The position numbers and the translations under genes are program-made. DNA of 64,000 nt from Ehretia macrophylla (lineage: Eukaryota > Streptophyta > Magnoliopsida > Boraginales > Ehretiaceae): contig CM075765.1 in the NCBI GenBank assembly GCA_037974665.1, positions 13,573,501 through 13,637,500 of the forward strand, read 5' to 3'. Below, in pieces: positions 2,001 to 57,977 of this stretch; within the stretch, counting starts at the first letter, position 1, and each line of letters begins with the position of its first letter. Below the pieces are notes generated by a model, which saw only the letters and a program-made list of their open reading frames with translations, did no database searches and was not told the DNA's origin.

Positions 2001-2043
2001 GACCCACACACCTTTTTTTTTTGGGTCAAAGACCCATACACCT
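2001..2043 (-). repeat. Poly(A) micro-insertion with 13-bp target duplication
   Basis: GACCCACACACCT (2001-2013) and GACCCATACACCT (2031-2043) flank a 17-bp insert of nine T followed by GGGTCAAA. Read on the minus strand, the insert is TTTGACCC plus an A-tail. The direct repeats differ at one C/T position. This is one of about ten such insertions in the window. Confidence 0.65.
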
Positions 2044-2449: not shown

Positions 2450-2507
2450 GCAAGCTACCCTCTTTTTTCTTTTTCTTTTTCTTTTTTTGTCGAAGCAAGC
2501 TACTCTC
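2450..2507 (-). repeat. Poly(A) micro-insertion with 13-bp target duplication
   Basis: GCAAGCTACCCTC (2450-2462) and GCAAGCTACTCTC (2495-2507) flank a 32-bp insert. On the minus strand the insert reads TTCGAC followed by an A-rich tail broken by three regularly spaced G. The interrupted tail resembles the degenerate poly(A) of a retroposed RNA. Confidence 0.65.
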
Positions 2508-4878: not shown

Positions 4879-6500
4879 TGACCGCGTCGTTTTGCGCTAA
4901 AAAATAGTGAGGTTAAATGATTGAAAAAATTGCTTACCTCGAATTACCTCTAGCTATGGCGAGTAGAAGGTCGATCTACGGAGATTGGGTTATCAAATTA
5001 AGTTAAGTCCCTAATTTAGAATTGTTTGACTATCTCCCGTCACGGATAAGTTTGATTAAGTCAAAAAGTCCAAAAATCCAACAAGTACGGTAAATTAAGT
5101 CCAAAAGTCCAAGAAATGTCCAAAATGTCCAAAGATACGGTAGTAACAAGATAACATAATTTAGTCCAGGAGTGGTTAGTTCAATTTAGCGGGTCCATGA
5201 TTTGGAATGATAAGTTCGATCGGAGTATTTAAGTGTAATATTATAGATTCAAATTAAAAGAATAAATCATTCAAGAAATAGGGCTACAAGCTCCCACTTC
5301 TGAAGTTAGCCTTAAATACGTAAGTAATAAGACTAATTAATTAACAAGACTGAATATTTTGGTACAACCTAACAATATCCAACTTTTCAATTAATCTTCT
5401 TACTTATGTACTCCGAAGGTGCTGGTACAACCTAGCTAATTCCGTCCATGGTAGTCACGTACTGCCACTGTTTACAAAACTGGGCGTATATGTATTTTCA
5501 ATTAACTATAACATAACTACAAGAATATGCATAATTAATTGATAATACTAAGCAATTAAAGAATATGAGACTTTAATTAATCTAAATCTAAATATATACA
5601 AAAATATCCTCACTTATTTATCATTCCAAAAATAAGGGTCTAAAGTGTCATAATTAGATTTACAAAATAGAAATCGAAATTAAGAATAAAAGTTACCGAA
5701 TTTAAGCACGTCTTGATTTAGCTGGCTCGATTTCTCCGAAGCTATGGCGTTAATCCATAAGCCCGACCCTTATTTTAGGACCCTAACTAAACTAAACTAA
5801 CCTACTCCTAAGCTAAAATATGAAGAAAAGTGATTATATACAAAGAAAAAGGTGAAAAATAGCTTCTGCCCACTAGAGGAGCAGAAGCCTGGCTAAAAAG
5901 AGAAAAAATGGTTACCCAACGTTGCTGCAAAATCGCGACATTTATAGGCAAAACTTCAGGAGGGCGCTCGAGCGCCAGTCAGGCGCGCTCGAACGCCCTT
6001 CTGTACTTTTGATTTTTATATTTTTATCTGTCGTGTTCAGTCTACATTTTACCGCTTAATTGTCGGCCTTTTTCAAAAAGTGGTGCTCGAGCGCGGAAAA
6101 GGGGTGCTCGAGCGCTCTTCTGGCTGTGGTATGTGAACTTTGACTCCGAACTTTGACTTTGACATGTTCAGTTGACTTTGACCATTGATCGTTGACTTTG
6201 ACCGTTGACCAAAAAGTTGACCATGTCTATTCCAAGATTTTTCAGCGTCCTGAATCCGTTTTCGCACTCGATTTAGTCAAATTCAATCTCGAATTGCTCA
6301 TTTTGAAGTTGTTCTACCATTTTCCTTTAGTGTTGCGTTGAATATTCTCTCAAAATATTGGTTTTTATGGTCGTTTTTGCTCTTTCTTCCTTAAAACCTA
6401 TATTACACTAAATTTGTGTAAAATATACAATTAAGCTTGAAATAATAATGCAATATACATGATTCAATGGATTAAAGTTACTAAAAATACGGATTTATCA
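4879..6500 (-). repeat. 3' LTR of the nested Ty3-like element
   Basis: 1622 bp, colinear with 8997-10582. It contains a minus-strand TATA box (complement TTTATAG, 5941-5947). Upstream of that in transcription sense are GC-rich palindromes (5963-5998 and 6083-6117) and a dense TTGAC array (6125-6225). An A/T-rich block follows, ending GGATTTATCA. Confidence 0.9.
5941..6225 (-). promoter_or_regulatory. LTR promoter: TATA box, CG palindromes, W-box array
   Basis: Transcription of the element runs right to left. The TATA-like motif is at 5941-5947. Twenty to 55 bp upstream lies the 14-bp perfect palindrome GGCGCTCGAGCGCC (5963-5976) with a related copy to 5998, and two more CTCGAGCGC copies lie at 6083-6117. 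About 180-280 bp upstream (6125-6225) there are nine TTGAC cores, eight of them full W-boxes TTGAC(C/T). W-boxes bind WRKY factors in plants. A stress-responsive promoter is an inference. Confidence 0.55.
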
Positions 6501-8996: not shown

Positions 8997-10582
8997 TGAT
9001 CGCATCGTTTTGCGCTAAAAAATAGTGAGGTTAAATGATTGAAAAAATTGCTTACCTCGAATTACCTCTAGCTGTGGCGAGTAGAGGGTCGATCCATGAA
9101 GATTGGGTTATCAAATTAAGTTAAGTCCTTATTTAGAATTGTTTGACTATCTCCCGTCACGGATAAGTTTGATTAAGTCCAAAAATCCAAAAATCCAACA
9201 AGTACGGTAAATTAAGTCTAAAAGTCCAAGATATGTCCAAAGATACGGTAGTAACAAGATAAAATAATTTAGTCCAGGAGTGGTTAGTTCAATTTAGTTG
9301 GTCCATGATTTGGAATGATAAGTTCGATCGGAGTATTTAAGTGTAATATTATAGATTCAAATTAAAAGAATAAATCATTCAATAAATAGGGCTACAAACT
9401 CCCACTTTTGAAGTTAGACTTAGATACGTAAGTAATAAGACTAATTAATTAACAAGACTAAATATTTTGGTACAACCTAACAATATCCAACTTTTCAATT
9501 AATCTTCTTACTTACGTACCCCGGAGGTGCTGGTACAACTTATCTAATTACGTCCATGGTAGTCACGTACTGCCACTGGTTTACAAAGCTAGGCGTACAA
9601 GTATTTTCAATTAACTATAACATAACTACAAAAATATGCATAATTAATTGATAATACTAAGCAGTTAAAGAATACGAGACTTTAATTAATCTAAATCTAA
9701 ATATATACAAAAATATCCTCACTTATTTATAGTTCTAAAAATAAGGTTCTAAAGTATCATAATTAGATTTACAAAACGAAAATCGAAATCAAGAATAAAA
9801 GTTACCAAATTTAAGCATATCTTGATTTAGTCGGCTCGATTTCTCAGAAGCTATGGCGTTAATCCATAAGCCCGACCCTTATTTTAGGACCCTAAGTAAA
9901 CTAAACTAACCTACTCTTAAGCTAAAATATGAAGAAAAGTGATTATATACAAAGAAAAAGGTGAAAAATCGCTTCTGCCCACTAGAGAAGCAGAAGCTCG
10001 GTTAAAAAGAGAAAAATTGGTTATCCAATGTTGCTGCAAAATCGCGACATTTATAGGCAAAACTTCAGGAGGGCACTCGAGCACCAGTCAGGCACGCTTG
10101 AGCGCCCTTCTGCACTTTTGATTTTTATATTTTTATCTGTCGTTTTCAGTCTGCATTATGCCGCTTAATTGTCAGCCTTTTTCAAAAAGTGACGCTCGAG
10201 CGTAGAAAAGGGCGCTTGAGCGCTCTTCTGGCTGTGGTAGGTGAACTTTGACTTTGACCGGCTCAGTTGACTTTGACCATTGACTGTTGATCAAACAGTT
10301 GACCAGGTCTATTCCAAGGTTTTTCAGCGTCCTGAATCCTTTTTCGCACTTGGTTTGGCAAAATTCAATCTCGAATTGCTTGTTTTGAAGTTGTTCTAAT
10401 ATTTTCCTTTAGTGTTGCGCCAAATATTCTCTCCTAATGTTGGTTTTTATGGTCGTTTTTGCTCTTTCTTCCTTAAAACCTATATTGCACTAAATTTGTG
10501 TAAAATATACAATTAAGCTTGAAATAATAATGCAATATACTTGATTCAATGGGTTAAAATTACTAAAAATACGGATTTATCA
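8997..10582 (-). repeat. 5' LTR of the nested Ty3-like element
   Basis: 1586 bp, beginning TGATCGCATCG and ending TTTATCA. It carries the same promoter layout as the other LTR: TATA complement at 10050-10056, CTCGAG-type copies at 10072-10108 and 10191-10222, and six TTGAC(C/T) motifs within 10231-10300. Many differences from 4879-6500 are CG to TG or CA changes. Confidence 0.9.
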
Positions 10583-16078: not shown

Positions 16079-16678
16079 TTTTGTTATTATTTTTGAGTAA
16101 ATTATTTATTTAATCTCGTATCTTTACTATTTATTTTGACTTAATGTATTCTTTCAATCTCGTATCTTTACTATTTATCTCAACTTAATCTTTATTTTTT
16201 AAAATTTTCTTTTTTAGTTCCGTATTTTTACCATTTATCCCAATTTAGTCATTATCTTTTAAAATATACACTTTTAGTCACGTGCTTATTTCATTAGATG
16301 TTTTGATAAAAAATAGTGAATGACTAACGTGGATCATAATGATAAAGATATTAGATAAAAAGATACATTTTAAAAGATAAGGACTAAGTTGAGATAAATA
16401 GTAAATGTACGAGACTAAAAAGACATATTTTAAAAGATAAAGATTAAGTTGTGACAAATGGTAAATGTATGAGACTAAAAATGTATATTTTAAAAGATAA
16501 ATATTAAGTTAGGATAAGTGGTAAAGATACGAGAATAAATATGTAATTTACCCTTTATTTTTTATTTAAATAAGGTTTAAATTATTTACATCATTTAAGA
16601 TATTATACATGAGATTTGATCTGAAAACTTCTCATATTTAAAGCAAGAATTATTCCACTAAACCAAATGACTAGTGGC
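16079..16678 (-). mobile_element. tRNA-derived SINE whose A-tail carries a nested MITE
   Basis: A perfect 17-bp TSD, ACGTGATACGAACTTTT, lies at 16062-16078 and 16679-16695. Between the copies, on the minus strand, are an A box TGGTTTAGTGG (complement at 16655-16665) and a B box GATCAAATC (complement about 16613-16621), then an A-rich tail. The tail is interrupted by the MITE at 16095-16553. Without the MITE and its TSD the SINE is only about 130 bp. Confidence 0.8.
16095..16553. mobile_element. Mutator-like MITE nested in a SINE tail
   Basis: 459 bp with inverted ends GAGTAAATTA.../GGGTAAATTA... and arms built of several degenerate repeats of a phrase like 'CTCGTATCTTTACCATTTAT'. A 9-bp TSD, ATTATTTTT/TTTATTTTT (16086-16094 and 16554-16562, one mismatch), is the Mutator size, although in T-rich DNA it is weak evidence alone. 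A second family member lies at 23500-23955. Confidence 0.75.
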
Positions 16679-16782
16679 ACGTGATACGAACTTTTCTGAA
16701 GGAGTAAAAAATTGAAGATAATAGAATAGGGCAAATGTGATATTAGTTGACTCAAATCATACTTTGACATTCTTAAAACATT

Positions 16783-17399: not shown

Positions 17400-17433
17400 T
17401 CATATATATTTTTTTTGTAAGCGTCATATATAT
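17400..17433 (-). repeat. Short A-tract insertion with 10-bp direct repeats
   Basis: TCATATATAT at 17400-17409 and 17424-17433 flanks a 14-bp insert of seven T then GTAAGCG, which on the minus strand is CGCTTAC plus A7. The structure matches the other micro-insertions but the 5' bases differ, and the flanking repeat is low-complexity TA. Confidence 0.4.
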
Positions 17434-17454: not shown

Positions 17455-17500
17455 TTCTGTATATATACTATTTTTTTTTTTGGGTCAAATTTCTGTATAC
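17455..17500 (-). repeat. Poly(A) micro-insertion, core TTTGACCC
   Basis: TTCTGTATATATAC (from 17455) and TTCTGTATAC (17491-17500) flank a T-tract ending GGGTCAAA. On the minus strand this is TTTGACCC plus an A-tail of about 12, the same core as 2014-2030 and 24348-24365. The flanking repeats differ by a 4-bp TA slip. Confidence 0.55.
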
Positions 17501-22213: not shown

Positions 22214-22255
22214 GACTTCACTAACTTTTTTTTTTTGGTCAAATGATTTCACTAA
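22214..22255 (-). repeat. Poly(A) micro-insertion, core TTTGACC
   Basis: GACTTCACTAA (22214-22224) and GATTTCACTAA (22245-22255) flank a T-tract ending GGTCAAAT, which is ATTTGACC plus an A-tail on the minus strand. Extending the repeats adds matches broken only by C/T differences, consistent with methylation decay of one copy. Confidence 0.62.
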
Positions 22256-24055: not shown

Positions 24056-24103
24056 CATATCCGTAAATGACAAAAAAAAAAAAAAAAAAAACATATCCGT
24101 AAA
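24056..24103 (+). repeat. Poly(A) micro-insertion with perfect 12-bp repeat
   Basis: CATATCCGTAAA at 24056-24067 and again at 24092-24103 flanks a 24-bp insert of TGAC followed by 20 A. The flanking repeat is perfect and not low-complexity, which makes chance unlikely. Confidence 0.75.
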
Positions 24104-24294
24104 ACATAGAAAGCAAATTATGCTGCAGGCGCAATAATGATGCAGATAATGCGTGGACCCTGCTGATGCCTTTTAAATTTCTACCATTGTAGTTTAAAAA
24201 AAAAAAATTAGCAAAAAAATATCGACCATTGAGAGAAGAAAAAAGTTCCCTTGCCCACGCGCAACCGAATTTGTTCCAAACTTGGGAATTTTGA

Positions 24295-24418
24295 ATCAAT
24301 GAATAGTTCAATGACAAAAAAAAAAAAATCAATGAATAGTTGATTATTTTGACCCAAAAAAAAAAAGTTGATTATGGTATCTCTTTTGACCACAAAAAAA
24401 AAAATAGTTGACTATGGT
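24295..24418 (+). repeat. Three stacked poly(A) micro-insertions at one site
   Basis: Three insertions reuse one target. (i) ATCAATGAATAGTT (24295-24308 and 24328-24341) flanks CAATGAC plus an A-tail. (ii) AGTTGATTAT (24338-24347 and 24366-24375) flanks TTTGACCC plus A10. (iii) AGTTGATTATGGT/AGTTGACTATGGT (24366-24378 and 24406-24418) flanks ATCTCTTTTGACCAC plus an A-tail. Collapsing all three restores an ancestral site of about 24 bp. All A-tails are on the + strand. Confidence 0.78.
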
Positions 24419-35530: not shown

Positions 35531-35883
35531 TTAGGACATTGGCTGCCTATCATCTTTGACTCTTCATGTGTTCACTTTTTACGATTCATGATTTTTGTTT
35601 TTTTTTTTTGGGGTTAGCCTAAGTAACATCTCTACACAATCAACTCATAATGGATAAGCAGTCAATATACTAGAGTTGAACCTTGCCATCACTTATCTGC
35701 ATGCATTGTTCTGTCTATGCAGTTGTATTTGGCTAAAATTTTAGAAATTCAGGAGTACGTTTTAATATATGCACTAAATTAATCAAAAAGTTTTAAACTT
35801 ACATTTTGGTAAATTTTACCTCCCCTTTCTTTGCCACTAGGCTACTCGTCGGGCACTCATATGAGTCATGTTTGTCTGACTCT
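35531..35883. other. Intergenic, nothing recognised
   Basis: AT-rich downstream flank with a T-run near 35600. No gene was seen. Confidence 0.35.
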
Positions 35884-36892
35884 CTTCTTGATAAAGGACT
35901 GTACAATAAGAGCTCATCATGTCAAGGTACTGCTACAAAGATATTAATTGAAGAGTTTGGAGGATGGTAGAAAGTACTTGTCACATTCTCAACAAACAAA
36001 GTGTACCTATTAGTGAGAGAACCAAACAATTATATAATAAAGGCCATAAATGGCTACTTAGTCAAAAAAAAAAAGGTCATAAATGGCAAAGTGAATGGCT
36101 AGGATACAATGAGGGAAGCCTAAGAGCAAGTTCAACATACTTGCCAAATTGCCACTTTAGTTAAAGTAGCTAGTAGAAGTCCAAAAACTACTTTCCAGCC
36201 TCTTTATTTAACTCTCCATTTTAGTTAACTTTTTTTTTTTTTTTTTGTTATTGCTGTTTCAGCGGACATGTATATCAACGTTCAAAAATTTATTTATATC
36301 ATGTAAGGGGCTTTGACCTACACGAGCATCAAGTAGAGGTAATGAAATAACATTTCACAACTTAAATTATATTAATATTATAATTTTTATTAAAACATAG
36401 TAGTTAATAATTAAAAATCAAAGATAAAAAAAGAGGTTATTAAGAAACGAGTTTAAAAAAAATATGGTGAGTTATTGGAGTATAATTAAATAGAGAGTCT
36501 AAAATGCGAATAAAATTGAAATAAATAATTTATAAAAGTAGATAATCACCAATTTAATTCTTTATTATGAAAAGAAAAAGAAAATTTATTAGACTTACCT
36601 TAAATTGTCATATCATTGTAACCATAAAAAGTCGTACAACTATTTGTGTTGTGAACATCTAACATTTTTTTCCCCTTTTCTTTAGCTATTTGAAATCATT
36701 GTTAGGTTAGAAAATGACATTTTAGGCTTCACTTATTGTACCCTAGCCATTCACTTTGCCATTTATGACCTTTATTAATCGTTTGGTTTCTTTCACTAAT
36801 AGGTACATCATCCTCCAACCTCTCCAATTAATATCTTTGTAACAGTACCTTGACATGATGTGCTCTTATTTTACAGTCCTTATCAAGAAAAG
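35884..36892. repeat. Long inverted repeat (foldback element)
   Basis: The left arm, about 35884-36130 (TCTTGATAAAGGACTGTA...), is inverted at about 36725-36892 (...ACAGTCCTTATCAAGA). Shared landmarks include CATCATGTCAAGGTACTG, AAGATATTAATTG and AAATGGCAAAGTGAATGG. The left arm is longer because it carries two extra insertions, one of them the micro-insertion at 36041-36087. The middle of about 600 bp is not inverted and includes a T-run. No TSD was resolved. It may be a foldback transposon or two copies of an element in opposite orientation. Confidence 0.75.
36041..36087 (+). repeat. Poly(A) micro-insertion with an internal empty-site control
   Basis: AGGCCATAAATGGC (36041-36054) and AGGTCATAAATGGC (36074-36087) flank TACTTAGTC plus 10 A. 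The inverted arm near 36750-36775 carries the same sequence with a single AGGTCATAAATGGC and no insert, so the ancestral site was empty and the direct repeat is a true target duplication. Confidence 0.8.
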
Positions 36893-38234
36893 GGGGTTGT
36901 TCTATTAAAACGTTTGCGGGCTCACATTCTCACTCTGATTCATGAAAAAGTGAAAATATCTAATATATATGTCAATTATAACATATACATAAGAGATGAT
37001 AAACGAGTAGTGAAAAAGTGATAATATCTAATATTTATTTATTTTTGTATAATAACAACTAAAATTGTGGTTGAAACTCAAATTTTTATCTCAGTGTCTT
37101 TCTACAAGGTCTTATAACATTCTCTTACTATATTAGTGATTGAATGTCCATGGGAAAAAGAAATGAAGAGGTTACGTATCTAATCGTACAGACAAATTTT
37201 GAGGTTTGAAAAAGTTATAATAAACTATTCTCTAAGAAGGAAATTTTTTGTCAAATAAGCTAAACATTTCCGCAATTTATTACATTTATCTAAAATTACA
37301 AAAGAAAATGTACAAGTCAACTGGATAAAATTTACCTGTCAATGAGACAATATGTACAAGCAAATGAGAAAACAAATATGTTATATTTTTACAAAAGTTG
37401 AAAAATCTATAAATACGAAAACAAAAAACGTTTTCCTTTAAAGAAAATATTGCAAATAAATGACTTTATCAACTGCAATTAAGCAAATACAATAACAACT
37501 TTGAGGCCTAATCGAGTGTAGATTCTATCTCAATTACCTTCCAACAATTATGTATGCAAAATTATAAGATTATCTCATATCGTCTCTTTGTTGCCTTTGC
37601 TAAAATAAATTCAATCTTGATATTCTCAAAATTTCTATGTTTCACTTTGAGTCGAATCAAAAAATACAAGAAGAAAAAAGTTACAACAAAAAGAGTAAAT
37701 AAAAAATAAACGACGAGCATACATATCCAACTATTATTATTATTTTTGGTTAGAAGATAATATTTATATTAACAAACAAAGGACACAAAAGAGATTTGGG
37801 TCAAACAAACTATACACAAGGTATAACAAGAAAAGAACATACTAAAACTAAAAACAATTACAAGGGTCAAGAGATGAGCCTACTAAAAGGCCTCCGAAAA
37901 TACCACAAAACTCTATGAAACTTACATAGTTCCAGGCTTTTATGGGAGAAAGAAAATATATATTTTTTTTGGTAAGAAAGAAAGGGATTCAAACCCCAAA
38001 ATCACTATTTTTTTTCTCATATCCAACTATTCAAATAGATAAGAAGTTACAACTTTTGTATCTACCTTTTGTATTGATTAAAATGACAATTATAAACCTT
38101 GAACGAAAATATAACAAACTTTTCCACGGCAAAACCAACCACCTTAGTTTGACCAAAAAAAAAAGAAAAAAAATACCAAAAACGGAAAATAACTATATTG
38201 GGGACCTCCCCATAGGTTTTTTTTTCTTTTGGTG
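36893..38234. other. Intergenic, nothing delimited
   Basis: AT-rich. The segment at 37730-37950 looks like the end of a dispersed repeat but has no boundaries I can prove. A T8GGTAAG tract near 37963 sits between A/G-rich repeats, and a TTTGACC plus A-tract near 38147 resembles the micro-insertion core but lacks clear flanking repeats. No gene is supported. Confidence 0.4.
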
Positions 38235-39287: not shown

Positions 39288-39624
39288 CCTTAATCCAATG
39301 TAGCAGTCAGAAGCATTCCAAGTTCTGACTTCTCTGTTGGTACCCACTTTCACACGTAACAAAACACCAATTGTATAGTGCTACAAGTATGAGAACGTCG
39401 TACTCTAATCATTTGGTTTATTATTATGATTCTCGTTTTAGATATAAGAAGTTTTGAAATTAATTTGTGATATATACGATATTTTTTAAAGTAATGTAAA
39501 ATTAATTTAAACATTATTTTCAATAAAAAAATTTGACAACGTTGCTTTCAAGACTAAGTAATTGGGTTGGGTTGTCGTGTATGATTTATTATAGTCAAAA
39601 TCCCAAGTATAATAAAACTTCGAG
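39288..39624. other. Intergenic, nothing recognised
   Basis: Short spacer between the hAT element and the next Copia element, with no features. Confidence 0.4.
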
Positions 39625-56872: not shown

Positions 56873-57977
56873 AAAACTCAATAACACGAGATGCAGTTTC
56901 TTTTTCATTTCTTAAAATTTGTCATTTTGCCTCCTGAGAGGATTTGATCTCTGAAACTTTATCACAAAGCCCTTAGGAATTGCATTCTAGCCTCTCTAGC
57001 TGTGTATCTCTGCTCAGAGTAACAAAAGCAAGTCTTATAGTTGTGCACTAATGCACCATATAGTTGAAGCTATGGGTCTGTGAAACGGGGAATTAAGCAG
57101 CTGGAATTCTAGGTGTATGATAGCATCTCAGACTAAATCGGCACTAGCATGAGAAGTTTGAAAATAAAATCAAAGGAGTCGTGAAGAAAAGTTAGCATGA
57201 AGGCTGACAACATGTCTGTTATCTCCTAATTTACCATTTCACCATGCTTACTAATCAATTATTCTGCATATCTTGTATGTATCTATATTTGGAGCTAGAA
57301 TTTTCCTACCTTATAAGCGATATACTTTTACTTCTCAAAAAAGAAAAAAGAAAAAAAAGCAATCTACTTGTACCCCCCTCATAGTTGGGGCCTTCAAAGG
57401 GAAATATATATTAGTTGATCTTATCCTAACCCCATCTTTTTTCTAGCTAGGTTAGTTCTGAAAATTGAAGAAAGCTTCCTAACAATCATGTTTAGGCCAT
57501 TGCTTTAAATAACACATTGTACCTTTCCCCTAGAAGGAAGGGTTTCACGAGCAGCAACTGAATGGAAATTTTAGTGTAACTGGAGAGGTGTTGATTTCAC
57601 TCCATTAGGTAACTCATTTCTATGGTTTCTTAGTTTTTAAAGAAAATCTAATAACATATTGTGCGCCAGCCAATTCCGTTGGTCTTTCTGCCTCATTTAT
57701 GCAGGACAAGGAGTAATTGATGACTTATTGTATTTTAACCGTTTCTTTTAAATCTAGTATATAGGGGTAGAAGAGCCTTTTTCTTTGAGAAATGTGAGTT
57801 TTCAGACACCTATTTTTGCATTTGCCATGCCTTTTGATTGCTGCATGTAGGAGTTCTTTCATTTTATTCATAGCTTGCAAAGGAATGTATGACATTTCTG
57901 TGTTGTTGTGGGGCTATTCATTTTTACCTAATTTCTTGAATGTCAATTTAATTGTTTTTGCCCTATATTGACAACAG
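56873..57977 (+). other. Presumed ABCD1 5'UTR intron, right part
   Basis: No coding potential. A possible old micro-insertion lies at 57317-57373: GCGATATACTTTTAC and GCAATCTACTTGTAC flank TTCTC plus an A-rich tract with two G interruptions. The stretch ends with the acceptor TTGACAACAG at 57977. Confidence 0.45.

Follow-up and report, generated by a model that had tools for sequence, protein, structure and literature searches.

Ultra-short A-tailed insertions with a TTTGACC(C) end in Ehretia macrophylla: probable products of LINE-type target-primed reverse transcription

A-tailed inserts in the window

The stretch of Ehretia macrophylla DNA analysed here (the window; 64,000 nucleotides of contig CM075765.1) contains genes and Ty1-copia open reading frames. 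In addition, it carries very short inserts composed of a few nucleotides of body (the head) and a poly(A) tail, flanked by target site duplications (TSDs). Nine of them had been listed in a first-pass annotation, and on re-reading their sequences were as described there. They are given below together with one further occurrence of the motif.

2001..2043, minus strand: TSD, TTTGACCC, A10, TSD (GGTGTATGGGTC/GGTGTGTGGGTC); TT common to TSD and head; clean
2450..2507, minus strand: 13-bp TSD with one mismatch, TTCGAC, 26-nt A-rich tail with G interruptions, TSD; clean; read directly
17455..17500, minus strand: TSD AGTATACAGAA / AGTATATATACAGAA (change in TA-repeat length), (A)TTTGACCC, A11; older
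22214..22255, minus strand: old copy, TTTGACC, A11; TSD with three mismatches in 17
24056..24103, plus strand: TSD CATATCCGTAAA, TGAC, A20, TSD; AAA may be part of the head; clean
24295..24341, plus strand: TSD ATCAATGAATAGTT, CAATGAC, A13, TSD; clean
24339..24375, plus strand: TSD GTTGATTAT, TTTGACCC, A11, TSD; clean
24367..24418, plus strand: ATCTCTTTTGACCAC, A11, TSD (T)AGTTGAYTATGGT; clean
36041..36087, plus strand: TSD AGGYCATAAATGGC, TACTTAGTC, A11, TSD; clean
38148..38164, plus strand: TTTGACC, A10, without recognisable TSD; old copy or chance

The nine main places are thus clean, including the three in 24295-24418, apart from 22214-22255 and 17455-17500, which are older and have decayed TSDs. 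Two places that had been graded as weaker, 17400-17433 (an AT repeat) and 57317-57373 (A/G tail, three mismatches in 17), are both still doubtful. At 24295-24418 three A-tailed inserts are stacked in one target of about 20 bp, possibly an insertion hot spot. Insert 24339..24375 apparently sits within the left TSD copy of 24367..24418, and this nesting suggests that 24367..24418 is the older of the two.

Several other repeats of the window were considered as a source of the inserts and rejected. The element at 16087-16687 (minus strand, about 596 bp) starts with a tRNA-SINE-like head, in which some stretches resemble box A and box B, continues as a foldback repeat, and is flanked by the 16-bp direct repeat AAAGTTCGTATCACGT; a related copy lies at 39405-39530. 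Neither ends in TTTGACC-An. The 1.6-kb repeats at 4879-6500 and 8997-10582, about 4.1 kb apart and 91% alike, contain TTGACC/TTTGACC clusters and are told apart by short tandem duplications; the TTTGACC words of 4879-6500 have no A-tail after them.

Target site duplications and chance

For the window, A-runs of at least 8 were counted, and the downstream flanks were swapped between runs as a control. TSD-like repeats with a score of at least 10 were found at 9 of 67 A-runs and in 36 of 4,422 swapped-flank pairs (0.55 expected per 67), so that the TSD-flanked A-tailed inserts reported for the window are real. Six of these nine are clean, all of them on the original list, and three (17416, 56007, 2846) are of low complexity. 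Insert 2450-2507 stands outside these counts because its A/G tail is interrupted, and 22214-22255 and 17455-17500 fall under the cut-off because their TSDs have decayed.

A set of 234 kb comprised the window and 17 of 20 fetched ten-kb stretches; L016 and L018 were excluded as satellite repeats, L024 with no formal test behind its exclusion. In this set, 9 of 269 A-runs had inserts of 0-15 nt (two of them doubtful, L017 minus 1129 and window minus 17416) versus 0 of 807 controls. For inserts of 16-40 nt the figures were 2 of 269 and 0 of 807, and the longer length bins were dominated by one tandem repeat of L017. TGAC(C)(C) beside an A-run is associated with a TSD (Fisher p 0.0047 at a score of at least 10, 0.0014 at a score of at least 8).

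A comparison of direct repeats at motif loci with controls had also been proposed in the first-pass annotation. The 68 motif places obtained (L001-L008, L029-L088) all lie on contig C1 and mostly follow the order of the listing. Adding five from the window, one from L009 and one from L023 gives 75 loci, of which 63 remain after removal of near-duplicates. At a score of at least 9 a TSD was present in 28 of the 63 non-redundant loci and absent in 35, versus 3 of 1,500 swapped-flank controls; at a score of at least 10 the numbers were 27 and 0. The 28 still include L066, which was considered as a longer member with a 15-bp TSD and rejected, since the repeat family to which it belongs has minisatellite units within it; excluding L066 gives 27 of 62. 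The minimal TSD length is 9-15 in 28 of 29 loci, and the A-tail stands at the 3' end of the inserts. Among these 29 loci, A is found at -1 in 22 and at -2 in 19, preceded by a T-rich stretch, a pattern in which A's common to the tail blur the nick and the TSD scoring favours A's.

Copies in the genome

The assembly (1.58 Gb, 20 contigs) was scanned with the reversed pattern as control. TTTGACC-A8 was found 3,261 times (1,604 + 1,657) versus 34 (10 + 24), in line with the very large genome-wide number that had been expected from the window. The corresponding counts were 1,350 (676 + 674) versus 5 (1 + 4) for TTTGACCC-A8, 4,176 + 4,221 versus 116 + 151 for the motif with one mismatch and 1,978 (1,045 + 933) versus 43 (26 + 17) for [ACG]TTGACC-A8. 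No TTTGACCC-A10 was found in viral_contigs. Among the motif places listed for contig C1 the spread is uneven, with none, for example, between about 10.95 and 26.0 Mb. Loci L109-L125 (not L118) and L128 are members of a repeat family whose AAACCTATTCCACTAAAA minisatellite units hold an inherited TTTGACC-A run.

A preferred 5' boundary

In 22 of the 28 TSD loci the insert begins at the motif or inside its first four bases: the left TSD reaches up to the motif start in 12 and extends 1-4 nt into the motif in 10, owing to shared bases or shorter heads. In three it ends 2-3 nt upstream, and in three further upstream, namely in the rejected L066 and in the complex loci L071 and L083. The concentration of 22 of 28 in 5 of 45 allowed offsets differs from an even spread with p 2e-16, upstream ends being slightly penalised by the scoring. 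Of the upstream triplets, ACT was tested; it shows no enrichment in front of TTTGACCC, as ACTTTTGACCC-A8 accounts for 27 of 1,350 places (about 25 expected from base composition).

The frequency of [ACG]TTGACC-A8 shows that the boundary is a preference and not absolute, and indicates many 6-nt heads or variant ends. Since the length of the tail varies and that of the head does not, the position of the boundary seems to be counted from the junction of body and tail rather than from the primer. Two loci carry compound inserts, TTTGACC-A9-TCCTTCTCAACG-A17 in L047 and TTTGAC-A4GGA6GTC-TTTGACCC-A10 in L083, which give the impression of short units joined together, as though two short RNAs had been copied in succession.

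Longer copies with a coding end

Longer members with the same 3' end, a search for which had been suggested, were found; they have a coding end and the poly(A)-signal-like AATGAA. An AATRAA 4-25 nt before TTTGACC-A8 occurs at 386 places (control 1), and among the 100 of these listed many share AATGAA..TTTCCTTTTGACC-A. One of the AATRAA places, L150, aligns with L002 in three pieces over about 560 nt, which run from the coding end across the 3'UTR as far as the tail. L044 and L084 also match, over the 38 and 22 nt, respectively, that precede their tails; for L035/L036 a match exists only when the tail is counted in. Across the genome, 95 matches to the 48-aa coding end of L150 were found, most of them in open frames. 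By eye, and among the places listed, 14 of the 95 lie 338-563 bp before AATRAA places (three of them neighbouring near-identical copies) and one more precedes a TTTGACCC-A8 place. TTTGACC(C)-An thus also terminates a protein-coding repeat family, whose 3'UTR is about 440 nt long. Apart from near-duplicates, a weak 31-nt match between L039 and L050 and the few long copies, no upstream sequence common to the motif loci was detected at the search threshold used.

The family is presumably a LINE. In the sequence preceding the tail, 0.6 kb of L150 and 1.5 kb of L002, Pfam gave no RT-type domain, and it gave no match on L004 and L005. The zf-RVT profile yielded 8,454 candidates, of which 150 were scored and 20 loci (L089-L108; 16 with a recognisable tail) read. 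None of the 20 has a TTTGACC end, and by eye none of the 150 places listed lies next to a match of the L150 coding end. The ends read were as follows:

L089, L091: ACTTAGC(T)-An
L090, L108: CTAGC-An
L094-L099, L107: GGCTTAGCC-An
L100, L101, L104: GAATTATC-An
L102, L103: GAATTAAC-An
L092, L093, L105, L106: without such a tail

A second 3' end and an empty site

HCTTAGCC-A8 occurs 308 times (control 5). Among 16 fetched CTTAGCC-A8 loci, three have inserts of 8-9 nt with an adjacent TSD: L136 and L141 with 8 nt, and L148 with 9 nt, the last recognised by eye and scored low by the script. L143 and L146 have inserts of 19 and 29 nt, L134, L135, L138, L139, L142 and L149 look by eye like longer LINE-like copies, and five are unclear. 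The exact end ACTTAGCC is present in long copies such as L134 and in no zf-RVT locus read. Judged by its sequence, CTTAGCC is a second end close to those of zf-RVT LINEs. In the window the head TACTTAGTC is a near match to ACTTAGCC and resembles the ACTTAGC(T) end of L089 and L091. Of the original idea that the inserts are copies of one RNA, the part concerning an RNA ending in TTTGACC(C)-poly(A) is supported; 36041-36087 resembles another LINE end, and further heads exist.

For this last insert an empty site exists within the window. In a self-comparison, 35882-36123 was matched by a copy in inverted orientation at about 36722-36892, to which the first-pass annotation did not refer:

36758..36776, minus strand: paralogous empty site of 36041-36087, a single TSD copy AATAAAGGTCATAAATGGC and no insert

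In the alignment, TACTTAGTC-A11 and one TSD are missing from the inverted copy, and the two paralogues also differ by other indels. The site is paralogous, not orthologous, and formally a loss by recombination between the repeats could account for it instead. It represents one locus, with a head other than TTTGACC; no clean empty site for a TTTGACC head was found among the paralogues of L057, and no further poly(A) insert appeared as an indel between other repeat pairs of the window.

Origin of the inserts

The best fit is LINE-type target-primed reverse transcription with extreme 5' truncation, as originally proposed, and the longer members sharing the 3' end agree with it. The inserts were probably made by LINE machinery which mostly copied the tail and about 6-8 nt of the body, with a preferred truncation boundary. 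An RNA ending in TTTGACC(C)-poly(A), LINE-like or another polyadenylated RNA, would be engaged at its tail by LINE enzymes, an endonuclease would nick AT-rich target DNA, and the poly(A) tail would prime reverse transcription. The copy would usually stop about 6-8 nt into the RNA body, and second-strand synthesis would then produce TSDs of mostly 9-15 bp. The boundary may come from a protein-protected stretch of RNA, the rest being degraded, or from a block to the enzyme at this point. As a tentative extension, retrotransposition by LINE enzymes in this plant may mostly involve the tail plus the final ~8 nt of the RNA, this stretch being shielded by a protein on the tail and the remainder degraded or blocked. 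The ~8 nt inserted would then record the footprint of this complex in the genome, and in the main family every insert would bring a W-box-like TTGACC, a WRKY site, to a new position.

A rather unlikely alternative is that the RNA is a passenger, Sadhu-like or gene-like and coding, which ends in TTTGACC(C) by chance and is carried in trans by LINE enzymes. The lack of an RT domain in the 0.6 kb (L150) and 1.5 kb (L002) before the tail and the 0 of 20 LINE loci with a TTTGACC end would agree with such an RNA; the copy number, and the 8-9-nt inserts produced also by the LINE-like CTTAGCC end, argue against it.

That the inserts form a micro-retroposon class of their own, in which LINE enzymes copy in full an RNA of 7-8 nt plus poly(A) that has a genuine 5' end, is also improbable, and a little more so. 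The preferred short boundary, which is unusual, speaks for it, as do L083 and L047, which by eye resemble two short A-tailed units joined by template jumping off a short RNA end. However, this possibility, raised in the first-pass annotation, is weakened by longer copies that share the end and a coding body, by the equally short inserts of the CTTAGCC end and by the common [ACG]TTGACC-A8; moreover, so short an RNA must itself be cut from a longer one.

DNA repair or slippage, either A-tract expansion beside a tandem duplication or filler DNA at breaks, is very improbable: break repair in plants is known to yield tandem duplications with filler, but it would not be expected to give a constant head, nor to make the motif 96- to 270-fold more frequent than its reversed form. 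Inheritance of the motif within larger repeats, the TSDs being internal repeats, holds for one subset, the (A/G)ATTTACTAAACTTTTGACC family including L066, and has hardly any likelihood as a general explanation in view of the scarcity of common upstream sequence and of the 3 of 1,500 swapped flanks.

Comparison with known systems

Truncation of LINE copies is a familiar phenomenon. Searches of the open-licence PMC literature gave no description of a class that numbers thousands and has a body of 6-9 nt and a preferred boundary, which does not prove that none exists. The inserts are presumably too short for homology-based repeat annotation, so thousands of TSD-flanked indels of roughly 25-50 bp would probably be missed and would represent a hidden output of LINEs. 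They may act as a source of A-repeats, presence/absence markers and possibly WRKY-type sites, and the preferred boundary offers a way to test how the RNA tail is gripped by the LINE complex of a plant.

Like plant SINEs, the inserts are short, non-coding, A-tailed and TSD-flanked. However, a body of 7-8 nt is too small for a Pol III promoter or a part of a tRNA, 5S or 7SL RNA, and scanning the window with Rfam and for tRNAs produced no hit that would indicate such a promoter or small-RNA origin.

The Sadhu elements, non-LTR retroposons of Arabidopsis, are described as about 900 bp long and non-coding, with poly(A), TSDs of 7-16 bp that often begin with A's, and partial 5'-truncated copies (PMC2848041). 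Poly(A), TSDs and 5' truncation are shared with the inserts, the TSDs of which tend to begin with AA after a T-rich stretch (29 loci); in contrast to Sadhu, the present family has a coding end and many ultra-short copies.

Short 5'-truncated insertions of human L1 show the hallmarks of truncation, poly(A), TSD and endonuclease site, the first three of which recur in the present inserts; the passages on them describe shorter somatic inserts and no class with an 8-nt body (PMC12016303).

The 5'-truncated copies of plant L1-type LINEs share with the inserts the poly(A), TSDs of variable length, a 3' end common with longer copies, and AATGAA or AATAAA before the tail. They differ from the inserts described here, in which the body is reduced to about 6-9 nt, the boundary is a preferred one and the copies number in the thousands.
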